This document shows, one piece after another, positions 483 to 62,716 of a stretch of DNA of 64,000 nucleotides; within the stretch, counting starts at the first letter, position 1, and each line of letters starts with the position of its first letter. Under the pieces are notes generated by a model that did no database searches, was not told the DNA's origin, and saw nothing but the letters and a program-made list of their open reading frames with translations. The position numbers and the translations under genes were made by a program. The DNA is from a virus: the IMG/VR virus record IMGVR_UViG_3300044647_002431, positions 50,712 through 114,711 of that record. The stretch is one strand, 5' to 3'.

Positions 483-514
483 AGTATAGTATTGGTGGTG
501 TACCAGCATGTCAA
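483..514 (-). promoter_or_regulatory. Sigma-70-type promoter for ssb
   Basis: On the minus strand TTGACA (509-514) is followed after 17 bp by TACTAT (486-491); overlapping this is TATACT (483-488) at 20 bp. The -35 hexamer overlaps the stop region of the polymerase C-terminal gene. A transcript would have a leader of about 35 nt containing the ssb ribosome site. The motif is seen; activity is inferred. Confidence 0.6.
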
Positions 515-2073
515 GTTTTTGCTAAAAACGTCTTTTCAGCAACAAACGAATCCTTATTTTTAGATATATTGCCCTTGATGATAATAATATTACCTTCAAA
601 TAATTGGTTACGGTATTGTCTAAAAGTTTCTGGAAAATATACCACAGAATCCAAACAGGCAGTACCATCATTTATGGATAGAAAAGCCATCTCGGCTCCA
701 GCATTTTTGCCCTTCTTTGTTTTGACTATATTGATATTCTCTATCTCACCGGCCACCATCAAATTATTGTTGCTGCATTTATTATGCTTAATGTCTCTAC
801 AAGAATGACTTACCATGTGAATATCATACATGTCTATTTTAGAACAGGAGATAGAATAACCCAACAACATGTTCTCAGTATCAACAAGCCATTCTATAGA
901 GTCTTCAATGGAAAATGGAGGATTTTTCATTGTTTTACATAAATTATTGACTATTTCTTTACGTTTATTCAAAGTTATTTTTTCTTTTAATTGACACAGA
1001 CTAGTATATAGATCATCTGTGTTCAAAGATATACTCTTAAGTAGAGCGACCTCTTTGGGTGTTAATTCTAATAACATACTGTAATCCAACAGCATTTTGT
1101 TTCTGTGTAACTTCAAATAATCCAATGCTCCGGATTGAATTAGTGCTTTACTAGCTGTGGAATTCAATTCATACAAAACATCTATCAAAAATTCTGTCCA
1201 TTTTAATTTAGCAAGATCTAGATTGTCTGTATGTATTAGGTGTTTTAGTTTTTTAAATGCTGATTGACCAAAACCTTTAATATCTGTTAGTCCGAAATAT
1301 ATATGTTGGTTTTTAAGTTCTATAAGATCGTTTAGCATTCTTACATCTGGATTACATATACTAATTCCCATCTCTATAGCATTTTGTACCAGTTCTTTAA
1401 TTTCTTGTTGAGGATCTATTTTATCTTTGGCAAATCTTAGGTAAGCCGTAAAAAAATAAACAGGATAGTGAGCTTTAGCATATGCTGATAAGTAACAATT
1501 CATAGCATAACTAATAGCGTGCGATTTATTAAAAGAATATCTTTGACTTTTTTCGATCCATCCGAAAACCTGATCAGCTTGTTCTGCATTTAATAATTTT
1601 CTATTAGCACAACCGTCTATAAATTTGATTTTAAGTTTTGCCATTTCTTCTGGTTTCTTTTTACCAATAGCTTTACGCAAATTGTCTGCTTCTTGCAAAT
1701 CGAAACCAGCAATATCTTTAGCTATTTGCATAGCTTGTTCCTGATATACCATTTCACCATATGTAGTATTCAGAATAGGCTCCAAACACTCATGAAAATA
1801 ATCGATATCTTCGACACCATTCTTTTTGTCGATATAGTGACTGGTTACGCTTTTTCCGTCTCTATATGCCTCCAAACATCCTGGTCGCATAATAGAAATT
1901 AGTGCAGCTAATTCTTCTATATTTGATGGTTTTAGTTTTTTAGCCAAAGACCTTCCTAGCCTGGACTCCAACTGAAAACACCCCTTAGTATTTCCATTTG
2001 ATATTAAATTCCAGGTTTTGGAACAAGCCAAATCAATTTTAGATATATCTGCTTCAAACATCTCCAAAGGCAC
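511..2073 (-). CDS. dnaE: DNA polymerase III alpha, C-terminal half (fingers to OB domain)
   Basis: A 520-aa protein matching only the second half of bacterial DnaE. It opens just before the fingers motif GCFQLES (31-37; FQLES in E. coli) and continues with RPGCLEAYRDG (63-73), YQEQ (110-113) and SFNKSHAISYA (180-190), then a helix-hairpin-helix (about 258-275) and a C-terminal OB fold (about 435-520). None of the three catalytic aspartates is here: they are in the separate protein encoded at 2947-4821, so the active enzyme must form from two chains. No intein sequence is present at its N terminus or at the FNKSH site where cyanobacterial DnaE inteins sit. It overlaps the exonuclease gene by 20 bp. 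Confidence 0.9.
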   Translation of the reverse strand: MPLEMFEADISKIDLACSKTWNLISNGNTKGCFQLESRLGRSLAKKLKPSNIEELAALISIMRPGCLEAYRDGKSVTSHYIDKKNGVEDIDYFHECLEPILNTTYGEMVYQEQAMQIAKDIAGFDLQEADNLRKAIGKKKPEEMAKLKIKFIDGCANRKLLNAEQADQVFGWIEKSQRYSFNKSHAISYAMNCYLSAYAKAHYPVYFFTAYLRFAKDKIDPQQEIKELVQNAIEMGISICNPDVRMLNDLIELKNQHIYFGLTDIKGFGQSAFKKLKHLIHTDNLDLAKLKWTEFLIDVLYELNSTASKALIQSGALDYLKLHRNKMLLDYSMLLELTPKEVALLKSISLNTDDLYTSLCQLKEKITLNKRKEIVNNLCKTMKNPPFSIEDSIEWLVDTENMLLGYSISCSKIDMYDIHMVSHSCRDIKHNKCSNNNLMVAGEIENINIVKTKKGKNAGAEMAFLSINDGTACLDSVVYFPETFRQYRNQLFEGNIIIIKGNISKNKDSFVAEKTFLAKT

Positions 2074-2746
2074 CCTTAAATTTAATTTTTTGTGATAAAT
2101 TCTTATGTAACTTTAAAAATCTAAGTAAGATATCAGCACAATCTTTTACATCTTTTAGAGCGTCGTGAGCATTATCTTTAGATATAGAAAAATAATCTCT
2201 AACATTATCTAATGATATTGATTTGACATCTTCTAAATACATAAACCAATAATATAATAGATTCATAATATCTATTACGTCTCGTGGGTAAAAAATATTA
2301 CTATCGTTTTCTTTATTGACTGTATTAAATTTTTGAGCCATACGATTAACTATTTTTAGATCAAATCTGTTGATATTATATCCAGAAGCTATAGGAGCAG
2401 AAAATTCATTTTTCTTACTAGTTCTCGAATGATACTTATCTAAATATCCACAGAATAAGGACCATGCTTGTTTTTGTGGCATAGCTTCTTTCCACGAACA
2501 TAAAATATCATCTCTGGAACAATTCCTAACTTTGGCATGAAAATTTAGAATATCATTATCATATTCGTGATTAGGATTGAGTTCTAAGCTTTCTGGCTTA
2601 AGCATTATATTAAATTCGGAATCCTTAACTATTTCTAATTTTATTGGATCCACTATCACAGCAGCTATTTGTACTGCACTACAAACATTAGGATTCACTC
2701 CGTCTGTTTCTAGATCAAAGATACATATTTTGTTACTAAATTTCAT
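2054..2746 (-). CDS. DnaQ-like 3'-5' proofreading exonuclease
   Basis: A 230-aa DEDDh exonuclease, the proofreading subunit type (epsilon/DnaQ). All five catalytic residues are visible: D11 and E13 in FDLETDG, D129 in YNINRFDL, H194 and D199 in AHDALKD. It has an ordinary single-domain length without the C-terminal tail that binds alpha in E. coli. Its gene lies exactly between the two polymerase halves, starting by a 4-bp ATGA overlap with a 59-aa gene and ending 20 bp inside the next, so all four are probably translated together in fixed ratio. Confidence 0.9.
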   Translation of the reverse strand: MKFSNKICIFDLETDGVNPNVCSAVQIAAVIVDPIKLEIVKDSEFNIMLKPESLELNPNHEYDNDILNFHAKVRNCSRDDILCSWKEAMPQKQAWSLFCGYLDKYHSRTSKKNEFSAPIASGYNINRFDLKIVNRMAQKFNTVNKENDSNIFYPRDVIDIMNLLYYWFMYLEDVKSISLDNVRDYFSISKDNAHDALKDVKDCADILLRFLKLHKNLSQKIKFKGAFGDV

Positions 2747-2922
2747 GCTGAAACCTTTACTCGCTGTAATGGAAGAATCATGACTTTTTCTTTGGTGTCG
2801 TTACGAATGGCATTAAGCACCTTGCAACAACTAAGTCTTTCTTCTCCTATCTTTGTATATTCTAAATCATCTAATACGAATACAGAATTTACCTCAATAT
2901 CAATAAACTGTTTTTCTAACAT
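2743..2922 (-). CDS. 59-aa protein of unknown function inside the split polymerase locus
   Basis: I do not recognise this protein. It begins MLEKQFIDIEVNSVF, has a Cys-Cys pair at 32-33, and ends in a basic/hydrophobic stretch. An AAAGGG ribosome site lies 8 nt before its ATG, and its TGA stop overlaps the exonuclease ATG (ATGA), which is the usual signature of translational coupling and supports it being real. Its position between the two halves of DnaE suggests a link with polymerase assembly or exonuclease docking, but this is inference only. Confidence 0.7.
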   Translation of the reverse strand: MLEKQFIDIEVNSVFVLDDLEYTKIGEERLSCCKVLNAIRNDTKEKVMILPLQRVKVSA

Positions 2923-2946
2923 ATTTAGAACCCTTTCTTTTTGGAA

Positions 2947-4821
2947 TCAGACCTGATGAGATAATAAATCTTTTATGCACATAATCTTATCTAGCATAGC
3001 GATACCTAGAATATCGAATTTTACAATACCTAAACTTTCTAGGTCTTGCATCTCCATACCGGCTATGGTCTGTTCGTTCCTACTATCATAAACCATAGGA
3101 CAGAGTTCGGCAAGAGCCTGTGAACTGATAGCGATACCAGCCGCATGTTTAGATTGGTTGGTTTTGGTCCCTTCCAGCCTAATAGCCTGCTCGAAACGCT
3201 TCGCCAGAGGGCCAGACAAGTTTCCTTCATCGTCGATCTTGCACCACTGCTCAAGACCTTCTGAATTATTTTCTAATGCCCAACGAATAATCGAAGATTC
3301 CCCATACTCGTCTTTCATTTCTTGTAGTTCGTCCGCAATTTTTGCTTCATCTGGTATATTTTTAGTAATCATATTCATTTCATCAAAACTAATATTACCA
3401 TAAACTCTTAATACGTCTTTTAAAGCTCCTCTGCCTTTCATAGTATTAAAAGTAATCATTTGAGACACTTTGCTAGAACCATACTGATTTTTAATATATT
3501 GAATAATTTCTTCTCTCTTGTTGATAGGTACGTCAATATCAATATCTGGCATAGAAATATGATCTTTAGTATTTCGACCAGCATTATAAAATCTATCAAA
3601 CAGTAGTCCATATTGCATAGGATCTATACTAGTGATGCCTATTAAATATGATACTAGACATCCAGCCGCACTTCCTCTTCCTGGGCCGGGAAGCCAGTCA
3701 TTTTGTTTTACATGATTAACTATATCCTGTACGATAAGAAAATAACTCGACAGACCAGCCCCCTGTAGAACCTCTAATTCGTATTTTATACGATCAACAT
3801 AATTATTTTTGACATTATCTTCCAGACTATTGAGATTTTTATTTTTCCATCCATGCCTACATAATTCTCTAAGATACTCGTCTTCAGATATTTGGTTTGG
3901 ACATTTAAAATCTGGTAAAGTTGGCTTGTGTACTATATCATAGTTTTCGCATAAACTATTTATATAGTGAGTATTGTCTAATTCTTCTTCAAAATGTAAA
4001 GCAGACATTTCTTGATGATCTAATATATGATAATTATCAGAAAGAAAGAAGGTGCCCATAGGGACATCGTCTTTATTTAGAATTTTTGTATTTATAGCTG
4101 GTAACGTAGTTTTTAAATTATTGCACAACAGAATCCTTTGGTCAACAGCATCTTCTTTTCTACAGTAGTGAGCATCGGGTGTACAAATTGCTTTAATATT
4201 TTTTTGACGAGCTATTTTTCTAACACAATCTGTGAGATGTTTTTGTATTAATAGATTCTGAGAATCCATTAATTGTGTTTCTAGGAAAAAATTATCTTTT
4301 CCAAAGGCATTCTGTAATAGATCAATATGTTTTATGGCCCCTGTTTCCCAATCATCTTTTATTTTGTCGTCACGAACAATACAATCTGCTACAGTCGATC
4401 CTAGGTGTCCAGATATGCCTATAAGATTACCGTCTAACAGAGATCCTAATGTTTGAATATCTAATCTAGGTTTATAGTAATAATAATCAGGATTGTTTGA
4501 TTCAGAAACTATTTTTATTAGGGTTTTCCATCCTTGATAGTTTTTTGCCAATACTAATAAATGAGCTAAAGATCTGTTTTCTGGGGTTTTAGTAGATGGA
4601 GATTGATCACAAATATATAATTCACAACCAAGAATAGGTTTAATGCCCTTCTTTTTCATTATGCTGTGAAACTTTACAGTACCGGATATAGTCCCGTGAT
4701 CAGTGATTGCACAAGTATCAACACCTATTTCTGCACACCTATCCGCTATTTGATCAGGTTTTGACAAACCATCAAGTAAGGAATAATGACTGTGTACATG
4801 TAGAGGAATATATGTTTTCAT
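2947..4821 (-). CDS. dnaE: DNA polymerase III alpha, N-terminal half (PHP and palm)
   Basis: A 624-aa protein equal to the first half of DnaE. The PHP domain shows HVH (H8, H10) and TDHG (H42), so metal ligands are kept. The palm carries PDIDID (425-430) and KFDILG (D603), supplying all three catalytic aspartates. The chain ends about 20 residues after KFDILG, where full-length DnaE would go on to the fingers; the rest is the gene at 511-2073. The terminal residues LLSHQV show no intein or frameshift signal, and two other genes lie between, so this is a true two-chain polymerase. It overlaps the nuclease gene upstream by 4 bp. Confidence 0.93.
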   Translation of the reverse strand: MKTYIPLHVHSHYSLLDGLSKPDQIADRCAEIGVDTCAITDHGTISGTVKFHSIMKKKGIKPILGCELYICDQSPSTKTPENRSLAHLLVLAKNYQGWKTLIKIVSESNNPDYYYYKPRLDIQTLGSLLDGNLIGISGHLGSTVADCIVRDDKIKDDWETGAIKHIDLLQNAFGKDNFFLETQLMDSQNLLIQKHLTDCVRKIARQKNIKAICTPDAHYCRKEDAVDQRILLCNNLKTTLPAINTKILNKDDVPMGTFFLSDNYHILDHQEMSALHFEEELDNTHYINSLCENYDIVHKPTLPDFKCPNQISEDEYLRELCRHGWKNKNLNSLEDNVKNNYVDRIKYELEVLQGAGLSSYFLIVQDIVNHVKQNDWLPGPGRGSAAGCLVSYLIGITSIDPMQYGLLFDRFYNAGRNTKDHISMPDIDIDVPINKREEIIQYIKNQYGSSKVSQMITFNTMKGRGALKDVLRVYGNISFDEMNMITKNIPDEAKIADELQEMKDEYGESSIIRWALENNSEGLEQWCKIDDEGNLSGPLAKRFEQAIRLEGTKTNQSKHAAGIAISSQALAELCPMVYDSRNEQTIAGMEMQDLESLGIVKFDILGIAMLDKIMCIKDLLSHQV

Positions 4822-47602: not shown

Positions 47603-48271
47603 TTAAGTATTAGTTTGTAATTTTTTGCTAATTTTTTCTAAAGTATATATATTATTCGTTTTATATGCATATATTTTTTTATTAGATAACAAAGTGTCTA
47701 CATGAGAATCTGTCCAAGCGTTACCATTAACTACTATCTTAATGTTGTCAATTTTTTGATTAATCATGACAGACGCTAGGATATTATCGGCTAAATTATC
47801 TAATAAATGATTAGAAGATGGATAAATAGTATCAATTTTGTGTCCAACCAAAATTTGACATATTTTATATAACAATTCTAGAGTAAATACCCTATATTCT
47901 AGAACATATCTAAGCTCTATATTATTTTCAGAACAAATACTTTTATGAGTATTAATATCTTCTCTAAATTTATCGTACTTTCTATTACACAGAAGGTGGG
48001 CTGGCGTCACAAGCTCTATTATTTCTGCTCCATTTTTTATTGCTAATTCAACAGAACTTTGTCTTGATTTAAGATCAGACACACCAAACGGATAATCTAT
48101 AATAGTAGAAAGTTTGGCCGAATTCTTTGTTATGTGATTTTTAATACCTTTGAGATAGTACGGAAAGACAGAAATAACACTAGGATTATATATGAGTGCT
48201 TTTTCTATAGTTTGTTTAGTTTCTAGTTCATTACTAGCTATATCATAGTAACCATACTCAATATGGTGCAT
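47603..48271 (-). CDS. DeoC-like aldolase fold, catalytic lysine apparently lost
   Basis: A 222-aa TIM-barrel protein resembling deoxyribose-phosphate aldolase: TIIDYPFGVSDLKSRQSSVE and AIKNGAEIIELVTPAHLL (about 55-95) fit the DeoC family. At the strand holding Schiff-base Lys167 in E. coli (KTSTG), this protein reads TIYPSSNH, without the lysine; the second active-site lysine could be the one in IKIVVNGN. So aldolase activity is doubtful and a binding or altered catalytic role is more likely. The gene lies 2 bp from the ClpP-like gene. Confidence 0.7.
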   Translation of the reverse strand: MHHIEYGYYDIASNELETKQTIEKALIYNPSVISVFPYYLKGIKNHITKNSAKLSTIIDYPFGVSDLKSRQSSVELAIKNGAEIIELVTPAHLLCNRKYDKFREDINTHKSICSENNIELRYVLEYRVFTLELLYKICQILVGHKIDTIYPSSNHLLDNLADNILASVMINQKIDNIKIVVNGNAWTDSHVDTLLSNKKIYAYKTNNIYTLEKISKKLQTNT

Positions 48272-48273
48272 AA

Positions 48274-48951
48274 TTATTTTTTCTTAAAAGACTTGATGCT
48301 GTCTATAGTTGGAAATCTTTTACTTCCTAATACACCATCGGCAAAACCATATGATACCGCATCTTCCGAGTTTAAAATCCAATCATGTCTACTAGCCAAT
48401 TGAGACACAATATGTTTTTTTGCCATCATTTTTTTCCAATTTTTGTTTTTAGCCATATCGCTATTCATGCATCTATCAGTAAAAATATCTATCATTTTAT
48501 CAGATTCTTTTTCGCTCCATTGAACATTACTTAGTACTGCTTTGTGTTCGTTGTCTACACTCAATGATCCATAATGAATTAGTACGTGAGTATTTGGCAT
48601 CAGAATTCTTAAGTCTGCTGCTTGTAATAGAACGCTACTTGCTGACTCTACTTTTGCATATGCTAAAATTGCTATTTTGGACTTGGAGTGTTTAATAGTA
48701 TCATACATTCCTAAACAATCCTCCCATACTCCTCCCGGCAAATGCATATGCACTAGAATAGGATCGTTAGATATTAAATTGAAATACCTGATATTTTTTT
48801 CGAAAGTAACAGCTGATCTATAATCTACTCCTGTCTCTTCTTCTGAGTCTGTACTACTATGTAGATATAATTCTCTATTTTTTATGTCGATACCTAAATA
48901 ATGTATGTCGTGCAGATCGTTGTCTGATAGAGGGTGCCTTGGTTCAACCAT
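48274..48951 (-). CDS. ClpP-like serine protease
   Basis: A 225-aa ClpP-fold protease. The triad can be placed: S103 in VESASSVLL, H126 in HVLIHYG and D190 in SRHDWI, in the ClpP order and spacing; LPGG (71-74) matches the oxyanion region and SEDAVSYGFAD the C-terminal helix. In phages ClpP-like enzymes often serve as head maturation proteases; here the gene lies near a head-associated gene (52020) and a sigma-like gene. It could also be a partner of host ClpX. Confidence 0.85.
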   Translation of the reverse strand: MVEPRHPLSDNDLHDIHYLGIDIKNRELYLHSSTDSEEETGVDYRSAVTFEKNIRYFNLISNDPILVHMHLPGGVWEDCLGMYDTIKHSKSKIAILAYAKVESASSVLLQAADLRILMPNTHVLIHYGSLSVDNEHKAVLSNVQWSEKESDKMIDIFTDRCMNSDMAKNKNWKKMMAKKHIVSQLASRHDWILNSEDAVSYGFADGVLGSKRFPTIDSIKSFKKK

Positions 48952-50182: not shown

Positions 50183-50750
50183 GTTCTCTTATCGTATTGA
50201 GGCTCTTATTTAGGTTTTGTCTAATAGCTTCTCTGGTGACTCCGTATGTTCTTCCTATTTCTGCTAATGTTTTGTTATCATAGTAGTACTGTTTAATAAT
50301 ATCTCTTTGTTTATCTGTGATCGGAGACATATCCAATAACTGGCTCATATCATGTTTTAGATTAGTATAGTATTCTTTTTCTTCGATTTCTTTTTGTGTT
50401 GGATCAGAGTATATGACCTGATCGCTGTTATAAGTAGATAAATATTTATCAATTTGATCTTGATATTTTTTATTGCTCTTATACTGTTTTGTTGCGTACG
50501 TTTTAATCGCCCATATAGCGCACTGATTTCTATATGAATATATCGTTTTCTTCATACCTGTGCTTTTACCAACTCTATTTTCGTCCCATTTCCAATCTGC
50601 TATCATGATAGCCTCTGCTATTTCAGATATAACTTCATCGTTATTGAGCATTTCCTTAACCAAAGATGGATACATTTTCCCAGCAAATTTAGAAATAGTT
50701 TTTTTAGCTAGGTTAATATATGTGTCCAATGTGTCGTAAGTCTTTTCCAT
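50172..50750 (-). CDS. Phage sigma-70-like factor
   Basis: A 192-aa protein with a C-terminal region 4-type helix-turn-helix: TLAEIGRTYGVTREAIRQNL (about 157-176), following ITDKQRDIIKQYYYD. The N-terminal part (YSYRNQCAIWAIKTYATKQY) is helical like region 2. It probably directs host RNA polymerase to late phage promoters. Its start is preceded by AAGGA at a normal distance. It is the natural regulator for the structural and lysis genes downstream. Confidence 0.75.
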   Translation of the reverse strand: MEKTYDTLDTYINLAKKTISKFAGKMYPSLVKEMLNNDEVISEIAEAIMIADWKWDENRVGKSTGMKKTIYSYRNQCAIWAIKTYATKQYKSNKKYQDQIDKYLSTYNSDQVIYSDPTQKEIEEKEYYTNLKHDMSQLLDMSPITDKQRDIIKQYYYDNKTLAEIGRTYGVTREAIRQNLNKSLNTIREHAK

Positions 50751-50800: not shown

Positions 50801-51385
50801 TTACTCTGTCAATTTTTTCCACTGTTCCGGGTCTGGCCTATCTTTGTCTCCTCGTTTAGCTGGACGATAATTTTTCCCTTCTTTCTTTTTTTTCTTTCTG
50901 ATATTATCCCAGAGGCCCGGCTTTTTTGCTACTGTAGTATCGGCAGCCTGAGACACATACATGACAAAATCGTGAATAGTACGCATGTAATCTTCCGTTA
51001 TGGCGATTTTACCTTGTAACCAGCTTTCTGTCAAGTTCTCTGCTACTTTTGGATTTTCAAGACTGTTCAATATTTCTGTGGCATGGGTTGCTATGGCTCT
51101 TAACGAACCTAAACTCATTTCATAAAAATCTTTTTTGTATTCCATCATCTCTTGTTCAATAGATTCCAATTCTATGTCTTCAATATTGCGAAAATCACCA
51201 TCATCTGACTTAGTTTTTTTTAAGTTTTGCAATTTTTGTTTTACTGCATAAATCTCTAGTAATTCTTTCATATCGTCAAGAGATAGCAGATCTATTCTAT
51301 CTGGACTTGTGTTTTCACAATTTTTAGAATATTCTGATGATAGAAAGTTATTTATATTGTTAAGAATGGCGTTTATACGATCCAT
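50801..51385 (-). CDS. Unknown protein with basic C-terminal tail
   Basis: A 194-aa protein: helical N-terminal two thirds, then KKPGLWDNIRKKKKKEGK and KRGDKDRPDPEQWKKLTE. This Lys-rich GLWDNIRxKK end is recurrent at the ends of small virion or scaffold proteins in T4-like phages. A structural or assembly role is likely, but not proved. Confidence 0.55.
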   Translation of the reverse strand: MDRINAILNNINNFLSSEYSKNCENTSPDRIDLLSLDDMKELLEIYAVKQKLQNLKKTKSDDGDFRNIEDIELESIEQEMMEYKKDFYEMSLGSLRAIATHATEILNSLENPKVAENLTESWLQGKIAITEDYMRTIHDFVMYVSQAADTTVAKKPGLWDNIRKKKKKEGKNYRPAKRGDKDRPDPEQWKKLTE

Positions 51386-51388
51386 GAT

Positions 51389-51973
51389 TTATACCTGTAT
51401 ACTGAGGAAGTTGTCTAGGCCCATTTGTTCAATTAACTTTAGATAGCCTTCATATAGCACTATACCATCTTCACTACCTTGTAGTAGTGGTATCATAATA
51501 TTAGCTGTCATCTCATCACCAACTGATCTAGCTGCGACTATAGTAGCCCTTTCAGCAGCGGATGCTTCTTGAACCGAAGCTAGATTATATCTAATCATAG
51601 CAAGCATATCATGTCTGCTCCAAGCTGGAGGCTGAACTACTAATGGTTGATAGTCAGCATCAAAAAATTCTAGTCTTAATAGATTAATCATAGCGTGTTT
51701 ATGTTCTTCTAGAGCGTCTGCTTTTATGACCGCTGCTAGTTTAGAATAGCCCCATCTCTCTAGATGTACAGCCTGTGCTGAAAGAACTGTTGTTTGCTGC
51801 CAGTGAATATTTAGCGATTTCTTAAGAAGTTCAACAACTTGGTCATTAGTATAATTTTTAGCTTCTTCATCAGATATCATGTCCTGATGGTCCGGTTCTT
51901 CTGCCACAATATTTTCCTTTTCTGCGATGTTTTGAGATTGTTCGCTTAATAATTCTTCTATATTTTTATTCAT
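51389..51973 (-). CDS. Bacterioferritin-fold protein with degenerate iron sites
   Basis: A 194-aa protein. After a 45-residue disordered acidic start, residues 46-193 align with bacterioferritin through helices A-D without gaps in the last three: RWGYSKL / LEEHKHA (helix B), ARSVGDEM (helix D) and LIEQMGLDNFL (closing segment, LIQKMGLQNYL in E. coli). Helix B keeps the E90-x-x-H93 iron ligands, but the Glu94, Glu127 and His130 equivalents read Val134, Ser167 and Gly170, and the haem Met is His91. A ferroxidase centre is therefore unlikely. Role unknown. Confidence 0.75.
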   Translation of the reverse strand: MNKNIEELLSEQSQNIAEKENIVAEEPDHQDMISDEEAKNYTNDQVVELLKKSLNIHWQQTTVLSAQAVHLERWGYSKLAAVIKADALEEHKHAMINLLRLEFFDADYQPLVVQPPAWSRHDMLAMIRYNLASVQEASAAERATIVAARSVGDEMTANIMIPLLQGSEDGIVLYEGYLKLIEQMGLDNFLSIQV

Positions 51974-52019: not shown

Positions 52020-52547
52020 TCACCAAGCTTTGCAACTCCAAAATCTGGCTTTCCACTTTGGACCAGGATTATCGCAATTATGTCTAGCTCTGAAACTTTT
52101 CCTTCTTGATGGAATATGCTTCTTAATTTTCATATCTGGATCACCAAAGTTAACTTTAACAACATTACCTTTATCATTTTTTACATAGACTGAGAATTTT
52201 TTGGGACCATCTGGCGTACGAAATGGTTTATTTAAAGTTACTTTTCTATTGTTTTTTTCTGCGGCTACCAAAATATCATTATCGTCATATTGTAGAATCT
52301 CATTAACTTCAACATCCCAAACAAATTCGTCCCATTCATCGTCCCATGTATAATTAGTGGCTAATAATATATTATCTTGTATTTGATCTAATAAGGGATG
52401 ACTGGTATCATAGCCTTTGGATTGGCCTAAACAAATAGCTACTCTCTGTTTGGAATCAGGGTATTCTTTCTTCATGGTTTCATTGCCCATACATCGGGCA
52501 ACAAACTTTTGCTTGTCTTCGTTTTCTTTAGGATTGGGTATGGGCAT
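52020..52547 (-). CDS. Phage head-associated-type protein with NFGDPDMKI/CDNPGPK domain
   Basis: A 175-aa protein. The start (PNPKENEDKQKFVARCMG, with RVAICLGQ about 20 residues later) and the end (VNFGDPDMKIKKHIPSRRKS, FRARHNCDNPGPKWKARF, WSCKAW) are two recurrent phage segments, usually found in capsid or prohead-protease-linked proteins. The conserved Cys and His at the end suggest a small metal-stabilised domain. Here both occur in one short protein. Confidence 0.65.
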   Translation of the reverse strand: MPIPNPKENEDKQKFVARCMGNETMKKEYPDSKQRVAICLGQSKGYDTSHPLLDQIQDNILLATNYTWDDEWDEFVWDVEVNEILQYDDNDILVAAEKNNRKVTLNKPFRTPDGPKKFSVYVKNDKGNVVKVNFGDPDMKIKKHIPSRRKSFRARHNCDNPGPKWKARFWSCKAW

Positions 52548-53675: not shown

Positions 53676-54728
53676 TTATTTATATAGAGTATTGTGAGTA
53701 TTGTTAACTAAAATAAACGTTGTTTTTTTACCAAAATCTTTAATTTTGTTTGCTCCAATATATGTACAAGAACTACGTAATCCTCCGCAAATATCTTGTA
53801 TAACATCTTTAGCAAACCCTTTATAGTCTACTGTTACACACTTGCCTTCTGCTGTTCTATAGTCTGCTACCCCATTATGGTGTTTGTTCATAGCATTAAC
53901 GCTACTCATACCATAGTATTTGAGAGTAATTTTATTTCCAAGTTCATAAGTCCATTCTCCTTCGCACTCGTCACATCCAGCAAACATGCTTCCTAGCATG
54001 ACAAAATCAGCATTACCCCCAAAAGCTTTACATATGTCTCCGACCACCTTGCATCCTCCGTCGCTACAAATATGTCCTCCTAAGCCGTGGGCCGCGTCCG
54101 AACATTCCATCACAGCACTTAATTGTGGGTATCCCACGCCAGTTTTTAAACGAGTGGTACATACACTGCCTGAGCCTATACCGACCTTGACTATATCTAC
54201 GCCTCCATGGATAATAAGTTCTTCAGTCATTTCTGGAGTAACAACATTTCCAGCCATAATAATAGCATCAGGAAATAGAGACCTAAGCTGGCGAGCTGTC
54301 TTTACAAATTGTTCAGTATATCCATTCGCTACATCTAAACAAATATTGGGATATGGTGTTGTATTCTGAATTCTAGAGAATACTGATATACTTTTTTGTA
54401 TGTCTTTATCACTTGTTCCAACAGAGTAAAATACTAGATCCTTATTAAGAAACTCTTCTTTAAAAAAATCTACATACTGTTGTTCAGAATAGTGTTTATG
54501 TAGACATGTTATTGCTCCTTCTTTCGCTAGAGCTTTAGCCATTTCAAATGTCCCCACAGTATCCATATTGGCGACCATAATGGGTATCACTGTTAGTTTC
54601 CTATTAGAATATTTAAATTTAAATTCTCTTCTAATATTAACTTCTGATCTACTGTTTAATGCTGATCTTTTGGGTCTAATTAATACGTCGTCAAAATCTA
54701 ATTTAGTATCATTAATAATTTTTTGCAT
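53676..54728 (-). CDS. guaC: GMP reductase
   Basis: A 350-aa IMPDH/GMPR-family enzyme most like GuaC, which converts GMP to IMP with NADPH. KLDFDDVLIRPKRS (9-22), GIGSGSVCTTR with the catalytic Cys (about 181-191) and TGVGYPQLSA (about 194-203) are visible, and the length equals E. coli GuaC (347 aa); there are no CBS domains. It would recycle purine nucleotides during phage growth. Its start overlaps no gene. Confidence 0.9.
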   Translation of the reverse strand: MQKIINDTKLDFDDVLIRPKRSALNSRSEVNIRREFKFKYSNRKLTVIPIMVANMDTVGTFEMAKALAKEGAITCLHKHYSEQQYVDFFKEEFLNKDLVFYSVGTSDKDIQKSISVFSRIQNTTPYPNICLDVANGYTEQFVKTARQLRSLFPDAIIMAGNVVTPEMTEELIIHGGVDIVKVGIGSGSVCTTRLKTGVGYPQLSAVMECSDAAHGLGGHICSDGGCKVVGDICKAFGGNADFVMLGSMFAGCDECEGEWTYELGNKITLKYYGMSSVNAMNKHHNGVADYRTAEGKCVTVDYKGFAKDVIQDICGGLRSSCTYIGANKIKDFGKKTTFILVNNTHNTLYK

Positions 54729-58287: not shown

Positions 58288-58817
58288 TGCTGATCTCTAA
58301 TTACTTTTTTTGTCATACCAGCAAAATATCTAGATCCATAATTAGTAAAAATTTCTTGATTAGCAGATATATCTACAGAGGCTACAATGTCTACATATAA
58401 ATCTTTATGATTAAATTTCATTTCGGCATTATTTTGATCCTGATGATTATAAATCATTCCGTGACCAAGTACCATATACATAACGAATCCGTGACTCTTA
58501 CAGTCTGCACAATCACACAATGGTTTGCTATAACAGTATTTCCATATAGCTCTGTCCCCTATATATTTAGATCTAAATTCTAGAGGAACAAGTGGGCAAC
58601 GCTCTATAAGTTCAAACTGTTTAATATTTTCTGTTGCATAGACTCCTATTCCTCCAATAGTAGAGTGTCCCAATTTGGTTTTATGGATGTCAATAAACTC
58701 ATACGGAGGATTTGTAATTAATGTATTTGAGGACACATATTCTATCGACGGTGATGAATCTGGGTTCGGGGGCAACTCATAATGATTATCTTGAATATTT
58801 TTTTGTGTTTCAGACAT
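58284..58817 (-). CDS. SET-domain protein (putative lysine methyltransferase)
   Basis: A 177-aa protein with a SET domain: GGIGVYATENIKQFELIER (about 54-72), GHGMIYNHQDQNNAEM (about 118-133, NHxxxxN) and ANQEIFTNYGSRYF (about 152-165). These are the SAM- and substrate-binding parts of SET lysine methyltransferases. Such proteins are uncommon in phages. It may modify a host or virion protein. It overlaps the deoxyribosyltransferase-like gene by 8 bp. Confidence 0.82.
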   Translation of the reverse strand: MSETQKNIQDNHYELPPNPDSSPSIEYVSSNTLITNPPYEFIDIHKTKLGHSTIGGIGVYATENIKQFELIERCPLVPLEFRSKYIGDRAIWKYCYSKPLCDCADCKSHGFVMYMVLGHGMIYNHQDQNNAEMKFNHKDLYVDIVASVDISANQEIFTNYGSRYFAGMTKKVIRDQQ

Positions 58818-59364
58818 TTTTAAAGAAGTACCATCTATTAAGGGTGTTTATATTTTGATCACTATTGATATGTTTTAAATACTCATGCAGTTCTGGCCAA
58901 CTAGAAAAGAATAGACAATGAGGTATGGTTCCAAACAGCCAGTCAGGGGTAAGCTTTTTACCTTGTTCTATGTGAATTATTATAGGTTTCTTCTGTCTGT
59001 TTGCCAAAAAAATTTCTTCTAATGTTCCGCACGGATGTGTGTCTATATCAAGATTTACAACTAAAAAATCACAAATATCAACCATTCTAAGATCAACAGA
59101 TCTAATGGTTTTCATTAATTTAGTCAATTCATCATACTGACCATTTGATTTTAATTGTTGTTTATACTGGATAATATCTGGTGTTTCTAGGCCAACATCT
59201 GTTGGTTTTTTAAGTGGATTAAATACGGATACTCCAAAATTTTCTAAAATCGGAGTAATATTATCTCTCCACGTAGCACCCCTATCCTTCACACGATCCA
59301 TCGCTCCTGCTAAATAACATCTTTGACCATTCAGTCTATTAAGAGTTGGCTTTATAGAGTCCAT
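58810..59364 (-). CDS. Nucleoside 2-deoxyribosyltransferase-like protein
   Basis: A 184-aa protein of the NDT/MazG-linked fold: CYLAGAMDRVKDRGATWRD (16-34) and FNPLKKPTD, then VDICDFLVVNLD (catalytic Glu side, about 95-106) and THPCGTLEEIFLANRQKKP (about 109-127). It would swap bases on deoxynucleosides or hydrolyse modified dNMPs. No mod-base enzyme is in the window, so the substrate is unknown. Confidence 0.72.
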   Translation of the reverse strand: MDSIKPTLNRLNGQRCYLAGAMDRVKDRGATWRDNITPILENFGVSVFNPLKKPTDVGLETPDIIQYKQQLKSNGQYDELTKLMKTIRSVDLRMVDICDFLVVNLDIDTHPCGTLEEIFLANRQKKPIIIHIEQGKKLTPDWLFGTIPHCLFFSSWPELHEYLKHINSDQNINTLNRWYFFKNV

Positions 59365-60563: not shown

Positions 60564-61565
60564 TTATAATATATTAGCTGCTATCAAACACCCTTTGGCT
60601 ACCGCATGTAAGGGGTCTGTGGAGTGTCTGACCTCTTTAATTTCCACCGGGAAATCATTATTCAGTAGTTGCTTACTTAGTTGTTCTATGTACCCTTTGG
60701 CTTGAGAAGTTCCTCCGGCCACAACTATGGTCAATGGGTTTTTAAATTTTGGTAAAGCTTTATGATTTTTTAATGCGTGTGCTAAATTTTTAGCAGTATA
60801 TTCTATAAGTCTTTCATAATATACCGACACAGCTGCTAGAATTGTGTTTTCGTTTGCAACACCTATTTCAAAATTACCTCCTTCTTTTTCAACTTGAACA
60901 ACACTGTCTGGTTCTCCTGTTGCTATAGCGCTCATTCGGTCTATCCAATCACCAGATTTAGTAGTGCTAAAAACAACTGTTGGTTCTCCATTTAACATAA
61001 CACATACGTTGGTCATTCCTGCTCCACAACTGATGCCTATTCCAGTATAATCATCAGATTCAAGTTCGGCATAACATAGTGCTTCTGCTTCATTAATTGA
61101 ACGAGGAGAATACCCGCACTCTGCTAAAATATTTTTTACTACATCTTCATGATACCCTACATCAAAATCATCGTCTTCTTGGTCTACTGGTTGTGCCGGA
61201 ATACAAAATACTAATTTTTCATTTTCTTCTTGTGCTTGTCCAGCCACTTCTTTTAAAATAAAAGCCAAAATTCTTTTTGCGTCTTTTTCTTTGGCAGAAA
61301 CTACGCCCCTATACATTGGTCTTTTTGCTGTATCATTACGTTCTATAGCTTTTTCTATAGCGTCTTTACCCAAAAGAATAAAAGCTCCATCAGTATCTTT
61401 GATAAAAGTCTTACCAGATAATCCCTTCTCTATCATTTTGGTAGCAACTGGGGTTGTTGGCTTGATAATATAAAAAGCGTCTCTAAAGTCTTTATAAACA
61501 ATATTGTTGTCTATTTCTTTAGACAATACGATATAACTTGTTCCTACATCTAAACCAGCAGCCAT
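60564..61565 (-). CDS. Actin-like ATPase (ParM/MreB-like ASKHA fold)
   Basis: A 333-aa protein with the ASKHA nucleotide fold: GLDVGTSYI (phosphate 1, 4-12), YTGIGISCGAGMTNVCV (phosphate 2, about 173-189) and TIVVAGGTSQAKGYI (adenosine motif, about 279-293). The plan fits ParM/StbA-like and phage actin-like proteins that form filaments for plasmid or genome positioning. It lies just upstream of the 60-aa gene promoter. No DNA-binding adaptor gene is obvious. Confidence 0.8.
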   Translation of the reverse strand: MAAGLDVGTSYIVLSKEIDNNIVYKDFRDAFYIIKPTTPVATKMIEKGLSGKTFIKDTDGAFILLGKDAIEKAIERNDTAKRPMYRGVVSAKEKDAKRILAFILKEVAGQAQEENEKLVFCIPAQPVDQEDDDFDVGYHEDVVKNILAECGYSPRSINEAEALCYAELESDDYTGIGISCGAGMTNVCVMLNGEPTVVFSTTKSGDWIDRMSAIATGEPDSVVQVEKEGGNFEIGVANENTILAAVSVYYERLIEYTAKNLAHALKNHKALPKFKNPLTIVVAGGTSQAKGYIEQLSKQLLNNDFPVEIKEVRHSTDPLHAVAKGCLIAANIL

Positions 61566-61567
61566 AA

Positions 61568-62716
61568 TTAACCTTTCATATTTTTAAGTTTATTAATAGA
61601 GTTGGAAATATTATCTTGTGACTTTTTAATATCTCCTAATTTATTGTATTTTTTTTCTAGTCCTTCTGTATTTATATCAACAACTACCTTACTGCTATCT
61701 ATTGAAATAGGTGTCTGACTAGTTGAACTATGTTGTTTGACATTTTTTCTGTTATGGACAACATAATTGTTGTCTTCCGACACTCTATGATAATTTTGTA
61801 GTTTGCCAAGGCAATAACCAATCGCTATGCAAACCACATTAATCAAACATGATATGTATATAATTATATTAATATGATTTGTATTAGATAATTCATTGGC
61901 TGTTGTAATCTGTTTAGTTTTACTAAATGAGTTTGTCTCTACTGGTGTTTTGGGTTTCTCTATGCTGGATATAACTTCGTTGATCCATGAACTAAATTTA
62001 GAAACCCTAGTGTGTCCAGCTTCATCTCCATAATTAGAGTTAGGATTTTTATCTTCTGCTATAACACAAGAATTGATTCCAGCTAATTTTTTATCTATAA
62101 ATAGACCTCCTCCACTATCTCCATGAGATATGATAAATTCTAAAACTGTGTGTCTTGTGCTTCCTTTAAATGAAGGTGTACATATTAATAAATCTCTATC
62201 TATCTTATCAATATAATTAGACCCCGCTCTTCTGAGGTGATCTGATTTGACAGATCCTGTATTAAAGGTGCCAGTAATACCAAATCCAGATATGCAACAA
62301 ATTTTTCCTACTTCATTATTTTCTGTATATAGTTCTGGATAAAAGTCTAAATTTATATCTTCTTTTATATATCCCAATGCAATATCTGCTGTGCCAAATT
62401 GATTATCGTTAAAATCTTTATGAATAAACATTTGATCGACACAATATTCTTTATCCTCGACAACAACCTTGACTTTTTCACACGACTCAACAACATGTGC
62501 TGCTGTAATAATCCAGTTCTTTTTAATGACAACGGCCGAAGCACAGTATGTTTTTTTATCAAAAGTTTGACCACAAATATGCACTACGCATTTAAATTTT
62601 TGACCATATGTGACATAAGAAGCATCTGATACCGAAGGATCAATAGTTCCTGCCTGACTATAACTAAATATAGTAGTAGATAAAATTATTATTAATAAAA
62701 CACAGACATTTTTCAT
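61568..62716 (-). CDS. Exported trypsin-like serine protease with C-terminal membrane anchor
   Basis: A 382-aa S1-family protease. A signal peptide (KNVCVLLIIILSTTIFSYS, 2-20) precedes a full chymotrypsin fold with H74 in TAAHVV, D111 in GTADIALG and S201 in GDSGGG, plus the flanking cysteines of the disulfides. A second membrane helix (about 282-304) and a Lys-rich coiled-coil tail follow. It would act outside the cytoplasm, tethered to the membrane. Unusual for a phage. The start is 51 bp from the HNH gene upstream. Confidence 0.88.
   Translation of the reverse strand: MKNVCVLLIIILSTTIFSYSQAGTIDPSVSDASYVTYGQKFKCVVHICGQTFDKKTYCASAVVIKKNWIITAAHVVESCEKVKVVVEDKEYCVDQMFIHKDFNDNQFGTADIALGYIKEDINLDFYPELYTENNEVGKICCISGFGITGTFNTGSVKSDHLRRAGSNYIDKIDRDLLICTPSFKGSTRHTVLEFIISHGDSGGGLFIDKKLAGINSCVIAEDKNPNSNYGDEAGHTRVSKFSSWINEVISSIEKPKTPVETNSFSKTKQITTANELSNTNHINIIIYISCLINVVCIAIGYCLGKLQNYHRVSEDNNYVVHNRKNVKQHSSTSQTPISIDSSKVVVDINTEGLEKKYNKLGDIKKSQDNISNSINKLKNMKG

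Follow-up and report, generated by a model that had tools for sequence, protein, structure and literature searches.

In bacterioferritin (Bfr), Glu18 and His54 are the terminal ligands of one iron (Fe1), Glu94 and His130 are terminal to the second (Fe2), Glu51 and Glu127 bridge both, and Fe1 is open towards the exterior of the cage (PMC3467274; PMC4771812). Bfr subunits with a damaged ferroxidase centre have been described in the hetero-bacterioferritins of M. gryphiswaldense and S. oneidensis, whose Bfr2 keeps the haem ligand Met52 and is encoded along with an active partner. The animal ferritin L chain, a subunit without a ferroxidase centre (PMC4771812), works in H/L heteropolymers. The ferroxidase-poor ferritin subunits that we found described, in hetero-Bfr and as animal L chains, are partners of active ones. 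Among viruses, a Bfr gene on the contig of a predicted Bathyarchaeia virus was reported to be Thermoproteota-derived and likely functional (PMC10904782; compared here by its description), and ferritin-superfamily folds occur in the Dps-/ferritin-like proteins of uncultured Caudovirales in BFVD (A0A8D9C9X5 and others). A literature search that covered few subscription journals returned no phage Bfr with the ligand pattern described below, and for phrases on phage- or virus-encoded ferritin the only match was to giant eukaryotic viruses.

The phage protein described here is like the Bfr of E. coli (1bcf) and Blastochloris viridis (4am2) in its four-helix bundle and helix E and in keeping Glu51 and His54 (25-28% identity, target-normalised TM-score 0.86-0.87). 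It is unlike both in having His at Glu18, Val at Glu94, Ser at Glu127 and Gly at His130, in the loss of Tyr25, Tyr58, Trp133 and Met52, and in carrying about 43 additional residues at the N-terminus. Its degenerate ferroxidase centre recalls the two Bfr2 subunits, but in the phage there is no haem Met and no second ferritin; with the animal L chain the comparison is one of feature. The BFVD proteins are not close to it (about 10-16% identity), whereas the protein studied is Bfr-type with a helix E.

The protein and its family

The window, which is the whole 64,000-nucleotide stretch that was analysed, runs from base 50712 to base 114711 of a virus record of 114,711 bases. That record encodes split DNA polymerase genes, a DnaB-type helicase, UvsX, PhoH, ribonucleotide reductase and a sigma factor. 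The gene under study is divided as follows.

51389..51973, minus strand: bacterioferritin-fold protein, whole ORF, 194 aa (ORF call, Pfam, phmmer, AF2, Foldseek)
51392..51844, minus strand: bacterioferritin-fold domain, residues 44-194 (AF2; Foldseek PDB)
51845..51973, minus strand: N-terminal extension, residues 1-43, with the leader MNKNIEELLSEQ followed by a variable acidic linker, predicted disordered (alignments; AF2)

Judged by sequence and by an AlphaFold2 (AF2) model, this ORF encodes a real ferritin-superfamily protein that is closest to bacterioferritin. It matches Pfam Ferritin (PF00210) at 3e-11, with 43.9 bits against a gathering threshold of 24.5, and has the four-helix ferritin fold in the AF2 and Foldseek results. 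In phmmer it matches PDB Bfr chains at 2e-7, and the profile of its family matches E. coli Bfr chains at 1e-11 to 2.5e-12, scores that place the homology far beyond chance. The AF2 model, built on a 55-sequence alignment, has a mean pLDDT of 85.6, exceeds 95 over most of the bundle, and shows helices A (44-73), B (77-103), C (120-150) and D (154-184) followed by a short helix E (186-193). An earlier note on this DNA had proposed a Bfr fold and named structure prediction among the checks; the model is confident, its top PDB matches in Foldseek are all Bfr, and the 50 listed from the PDB consist of bacterioferritins and one chain of a Bfr/Ftn hetero-complex. The gap-free alignment with Bfr that the note gave for the last three helices extends to helix A as well, the sole indel falling in the B-C loop.

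The protein is not a bacterioferritin by equivalog model, ligand set or haem ligand. NCBI TIGR00754 gives it 33.2 bits against a cut-off of 125.55, and no PHROGs family was found for it. By its modelled architecture it is not a Dps either: Dps, a 12-mer, lacks helix E and has a helix in the B-C loop, whereas here helix E is present and residues 104-119 are non-helical, and Bfr (with the one Ftn/Bfr complex chain) makes up the PDB matches listed. The C-terminal helix E, which in Bfr lies at the four-fold axis of the 24-subunit cage, is there, and a Bfr-type cage is plausible for the phage protein because this helix is kept. Over the helix E segment, identity to E. coli Bfr is 55%, compared with 30% for the protein as a whole, an excess that is not significant (P=0.07), and helix A is the part least identical to Bfr, at 17%.

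The N-terminal extension, which the earlier note had taken for a 45-residue acidic tail, is indeed an acidic addition (12 acidic and 3 basic residues in positions 1-43) and lies at the start of the protein, with a length of about 43 residues. Its middle is poorly conserved and mostly gapped in the relatives, and pLDDT falls below 50 at residues 19-32 of the linker. The leader conforms to the pattern [ILM]x[ED][LIF][LI]xx[EQND] in 58 of 93 sequences and can still be recognised in a member of 53% identity; start-codon choice, which is variable, may hide it in other members.

A scan of IMG/VR yielded 108 relatives, to which more were added by scans that started from divergent members, from the family profile and from the neighbouring genes, and the final alignment holds 93 distinct sequences reaching down to about 50-54% identity. 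In a bacterial genome collection, only two short MAG contigs encode the family, both with the same phage neighbours. The gene appears to be under purifying selection, with a median dN/dS of about 0.10 for the family at dS values near saturation. The phage neighbour MT835709 (25% identity), an UNVERIFIED record in which a bfd-like gene adjoins a Bfr-like ORF with near-canonical ligands, was considered and is not a family member.

Diiron, relay and haem positions

The six positions that correspond to the Bfr diiron ligands were assigned through sequence and fold alignment.

51803..51805, minus strand: His57 codon, Bfr Glu18 position, Fe1 terminal ligand; His in 93/93 (ligand roles, PMC3467274)
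51704..51706, minus strand: Glu90 codon, Bfr Glu51, bridging ligand; invariant, 93/93
51695..51697, minus strand: His93 codon, Bfr His54, Fe1 terminal ligand; invariant, 93/93
51572..51574, minus strand: Val134 codon, Bfr Glu94, Fe2 ligand lost; invariant, 93/93
51473..51475, minus strand: Ser167 codon, Bfr Glu127, bridging ligand lost; invariant, 93/93
51464..51466, minus strand: Gly170 codon, Bfr His130, Fe2 ligand and gate lost; Gly in 92/93

No member of the alignment has either terminal ligand of Fe2 or the bridging Glu127, and a His-Glu-His set remains at Fe1; the replacements hold even in the divergent members of about 50-54% identity. Set against the six ligands of Bfr, Glu51 and His54 are kept, Glu18 is His and the rest are Val, Ser and Gly. 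The loss thus looks one-sided, taking Fe2 and one bridging ligand, and not general: selection appears to have removed one half of a two-iron site and to have kept the other half as His-Glu-His. The electron-relay residues Tyr25, Tyr58 and Trp133 of Bfr are Leu, Asn and Leu in the family, and the inner-surface iron site His46/Asp50 is absent from it. The position of the haem ligand Met52 holds His in 68/93 sequences and Gln in 25/93. Invariant Trp (Trp58) replaces Leu19, a residue that lies beside the haem in Bfr structures.

These results leave the substitutions of Glu94, Glu127 and His130 proposed in the earlier note as it gave them, and they agree with its view that there is no diiron ferroxidase centre, three of six ligands being absent throughout the family. 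With the relay aromatics and the inner-surface site gone as well, a canonical role in iron storage is unlikely. Its statement that most iron ligands are lost is right for those three positions and too broad for the others, where Glu51 and His54 are invariant and Glu18 has become the invariant His57. The change of haem Met to His is found in the studied ORF (His91), but is no fixed new ligand, given the sequences with Gln. What the family has probably lost is the mineralisation machinery, not every metal ligand. An iron-independent role, which had also been suggested, does not follow, because the complete half-site of His57, Glu90 and His93 is invariant.

Those three residues may bind a metal. 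Their invariance alone is moderately informative, because many core positions are invariant (37 in the 93-sequence alignment and 51 of 135 compared positions in a closer alignment). Other polar residues that are equally invariant include Trp58, Gln60, His70, Asp86, Arg100, Glu102, Trp118, Arg120, His121 and Glu141, and His57, Glu90 and His93 may instead be conserved for structural reasons.

Neighbourhood and distribution

In most loci the ferritin-like gene lies between the same two genes, here at 50801 and 52020.

52020..52547, minus strand: upstream neighbour, 175 aa, phrog_7595 (unknown function), four invariant Cys
50801..51385, minus strand: downstream neighbour, 194 aa, unknown function

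A gene of the upstream family was found at most 1 kb upstream of the ferritin-like gene in all of the 80 loci first fetched, and at most 50 bp upstream in 60 of these. The downstream family and a sigma factor come after in most loci, and in about ten the pair sits between exonuclease and DNA polymerase genes. Structure prediction for the upstream neighbour gave low confidence (pLDDT 62). A search of a defence-system library gave no match.

The carriers are a group of large, uncultured tailed phages in which the gene is optional. Ten sister records of up to 224 kb, possibly incomplete, carry the upstream-family gene and yielded no ferritin-like gene by profile or sequence search; the same profile search, as a positive control, detected the gene in 18 of 18 records known to carry it. 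In 30 of 47 loci with the upstream-family gene there is no ferritin-like gene within 3 kb, and in several of these loci the upstream gene is followed directly by the downstream family or by another small gene. Because of its absence from the ten sister records and from those 30 loci, the ferritin-like gene is most likely an optional insertion, in a slot whose content varies.

The earlier note had placed the gene next to head-associated genes and from this suggested a shell or scaffold role. The sole basis for that adjacency is a ClpP-like gene (48274-48951), which is better matched by Clp protease models (51 bits) than by head-maturation protease models (42 bits). In a 244-kb relative, the ferritin-like gene is found at 127 kb, a long way from the genes for terminase, portal and major head protein at about 230-238 kb. 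With head genes more than 100 kb away, an optional gene, and a replication-gene setting in a minority of loci, the shell or scaffold interpretation is weak, and a head or shell role was set aside as the leading idea. Searches for a T4-type prohead protease and Gp23 returned no match, and no positive control match either. The gene looks accessory and not essential and structural, because head genes are this distant, the ten sister records are without it, and it sits in a replication module in a minority of loci.

The same variable slot holds a small cysteine-rich phage gene at some loci (L049:6831-7253, L089:1371-1793 and L188:3517-3936), with several conserved Cys and somewhat like high-potential iron-sulphur proteins; a link between this possibly iron-sulphur gene and the ferritin-like gene was considered and rejected, the former being present in just 13 of 80 loci. 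In more distant phages (L224:2322-2678, and L223 near 2175), a short Dps-like helical protein with the motif HW...H...YD...D...E lies just upstream of the gene of our upstream-neighbour family, and is a second ferritin-like neighbour of that family. A further conserved neighbour (47603-48271, minus strand) has a marginal DeoC/LacD aldolase match (E=0.08).

Possible roles and other genes of the record

The explanation that we favour, tentatively and at somewhat below even chances, is a non-mineralising, Bfr-derived protein that holds one metal per subunit at an outward-accessible site, is auxiliary in infection and docks via its leader. The protein would be a phage-adapted descendant of bacterioferritin whose ferroxidase and iron-store function is gone. 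It would still dimerise and would probably form a Bfr-type cage, since helix E is retained. One metal per subunit would be bound by two His and one Glu at the Fe1 position, which would be accessible from outside, next to an open pocket left where Fe2 sat. Its part in infection could be that of a metal buffer, an oxygen- or peroxide-reactive site, or a sensor, and the N-terminal leader, which would face the outside of a Bfr-type shell, might dock it to a partner. A bolder form of this reading, which we rate as fairly unlikely, is that the phages have made the Bfr fold into an enzyme or sensor instead of an iron store, carried as an optional infection gene, with the Fe2 half erased and Fe1 made into a 2-His-1-Glu mononuclear site with an open pocket.

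A metal-free scaffold, in which the Bfr fold would serve as an inert dimer or cage displaying leader peptides and the His and Glu would be packing residues, is possible and in our estimate somewhat unlikely. The disappearance of all Fe2, relay, inner-surface and haem features agrees with it, as do the many other polar residues that are equally invariant and a leader that, even in the 53%-identical member, is partly conserved where the linker after it varies. What survives, however, is precisely a metal-ligand set, with a Glu-to-His swap that retains ligand character, and a gene that is optional would be no essential scaffold.

The phage subunit might instead join host bacterioferritin cages and alter iron storage or release in infection, an idea that we consider quite unlikely. 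There are known cases of ferroxidase-degenerate Bfr subunits that assemble together with active ones (PMC12120770; PMC6529640), and any partner would have to be the host's: the 18 phage records searched (126-244 kb) have exactly one ferritin domain apiece, so that none of them has a partner Bfr gene of its own, as in hetero-Bfr. The known degenerate partners, however, keep the haem Met52 that the phage family has lost, and they are encoded together with their active subunit. Helix A, moreover, has the lowest identity to Bfr, and residues at the haem and two-fold interface are fixed in a phage-specific form across many phages (Trp58 invariant, and Thr62 in the closer alignment), which suggests self-pairing.

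A virion-internal protein, packaged and injected with its leader acting as a prohead-targeting peptide, is distinctly improbable as an account of this gene, and could be true together with the other readings. Internal proteins of the T4 type vary widely, a capsid targeting sequence being all that they have in common (PMC3012670), and an accessory gene in a variable slot would suit such a role. The downstream family and the cysteine-rich gene of the same slot do have a common N-terminal motif: a PSSM trained on the downstream family, whose own positive score there is that of its training set, strongly matches the leaders of the cysteine-rich gene (96% above the 99% control). Of the ferritin-like leaders, however, just 11% exceed the 99% control (median p about 0.07), a weak match that makes a capsid-targeting leader common to the slot genes doubtful. 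The distance of more than 100 kb to head genes in the 244-kb relative also speaks against packaging, as does the negative search, run without a positive control, for a T4-type prohead protease.

An ordinary phage-encoded iron storage or ferroxidase protein, that is, a bacterioferritin auxiliary metabolic gene, is very improbable in spite of the report of a virus-encoded Bfr thought functional (PMC10904782), with half of the six diiron ligands, as well as the relay aromatics and the inner-surface site, absent throughout the family and a score below the Bfr equivalog cut-off, and canonical iron storage is judged unlikely because this is a Bfr fold that seems to have no diiron ferroxidase centre.

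Throughout this phage family the diiron site has been erased on the same side and the erasure is fixed, with a His-Glu-His half-site kept, no partner subunit of the family's own and an optional gene. The family would offer a natural test of how a ferritin fold is used once iron mineralisation is gone, with a clear set of residues to mutate. In addition, Pfam matches alone are insufficient to count such genes as iron-storage auxiliary metabolic genes.

Several other genes of the record were observed along the way. The DNA polymerase (511-4821, minus strand) is divided into two parts, ORFs 2947-4821 and 511-2073, and an exonuclease ORF (2054-2746) lies between these. A full-length phage GMP reductase (53676-54728, minus strand; 495 bits against an NCBI cut-off of 397) adjoins a glycosyltransferase, an arrangement conserved across many relatives, and a nucleoside 2-deoxyribosyltransferase-like protein is encoded at 58810-59364 (minus strand); the two may take part in nucleotide modification or salvage. 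On the minus strand there are also a SET-domain protein, unusual in phage (58284-58817; Pfam PF00856, 3e-10), an actin-like Volactin (60564-61565; Pfam PF25216, 1e-63) and a trypsin-like protease with an apparent N-terminal signal peptide (61568-62716; PF00089, 5e-18). Outside the window, the same record holds a 5797-aa ORF (L091:2402-19795) that, by size alone, is probably a very large tape-measure protein.
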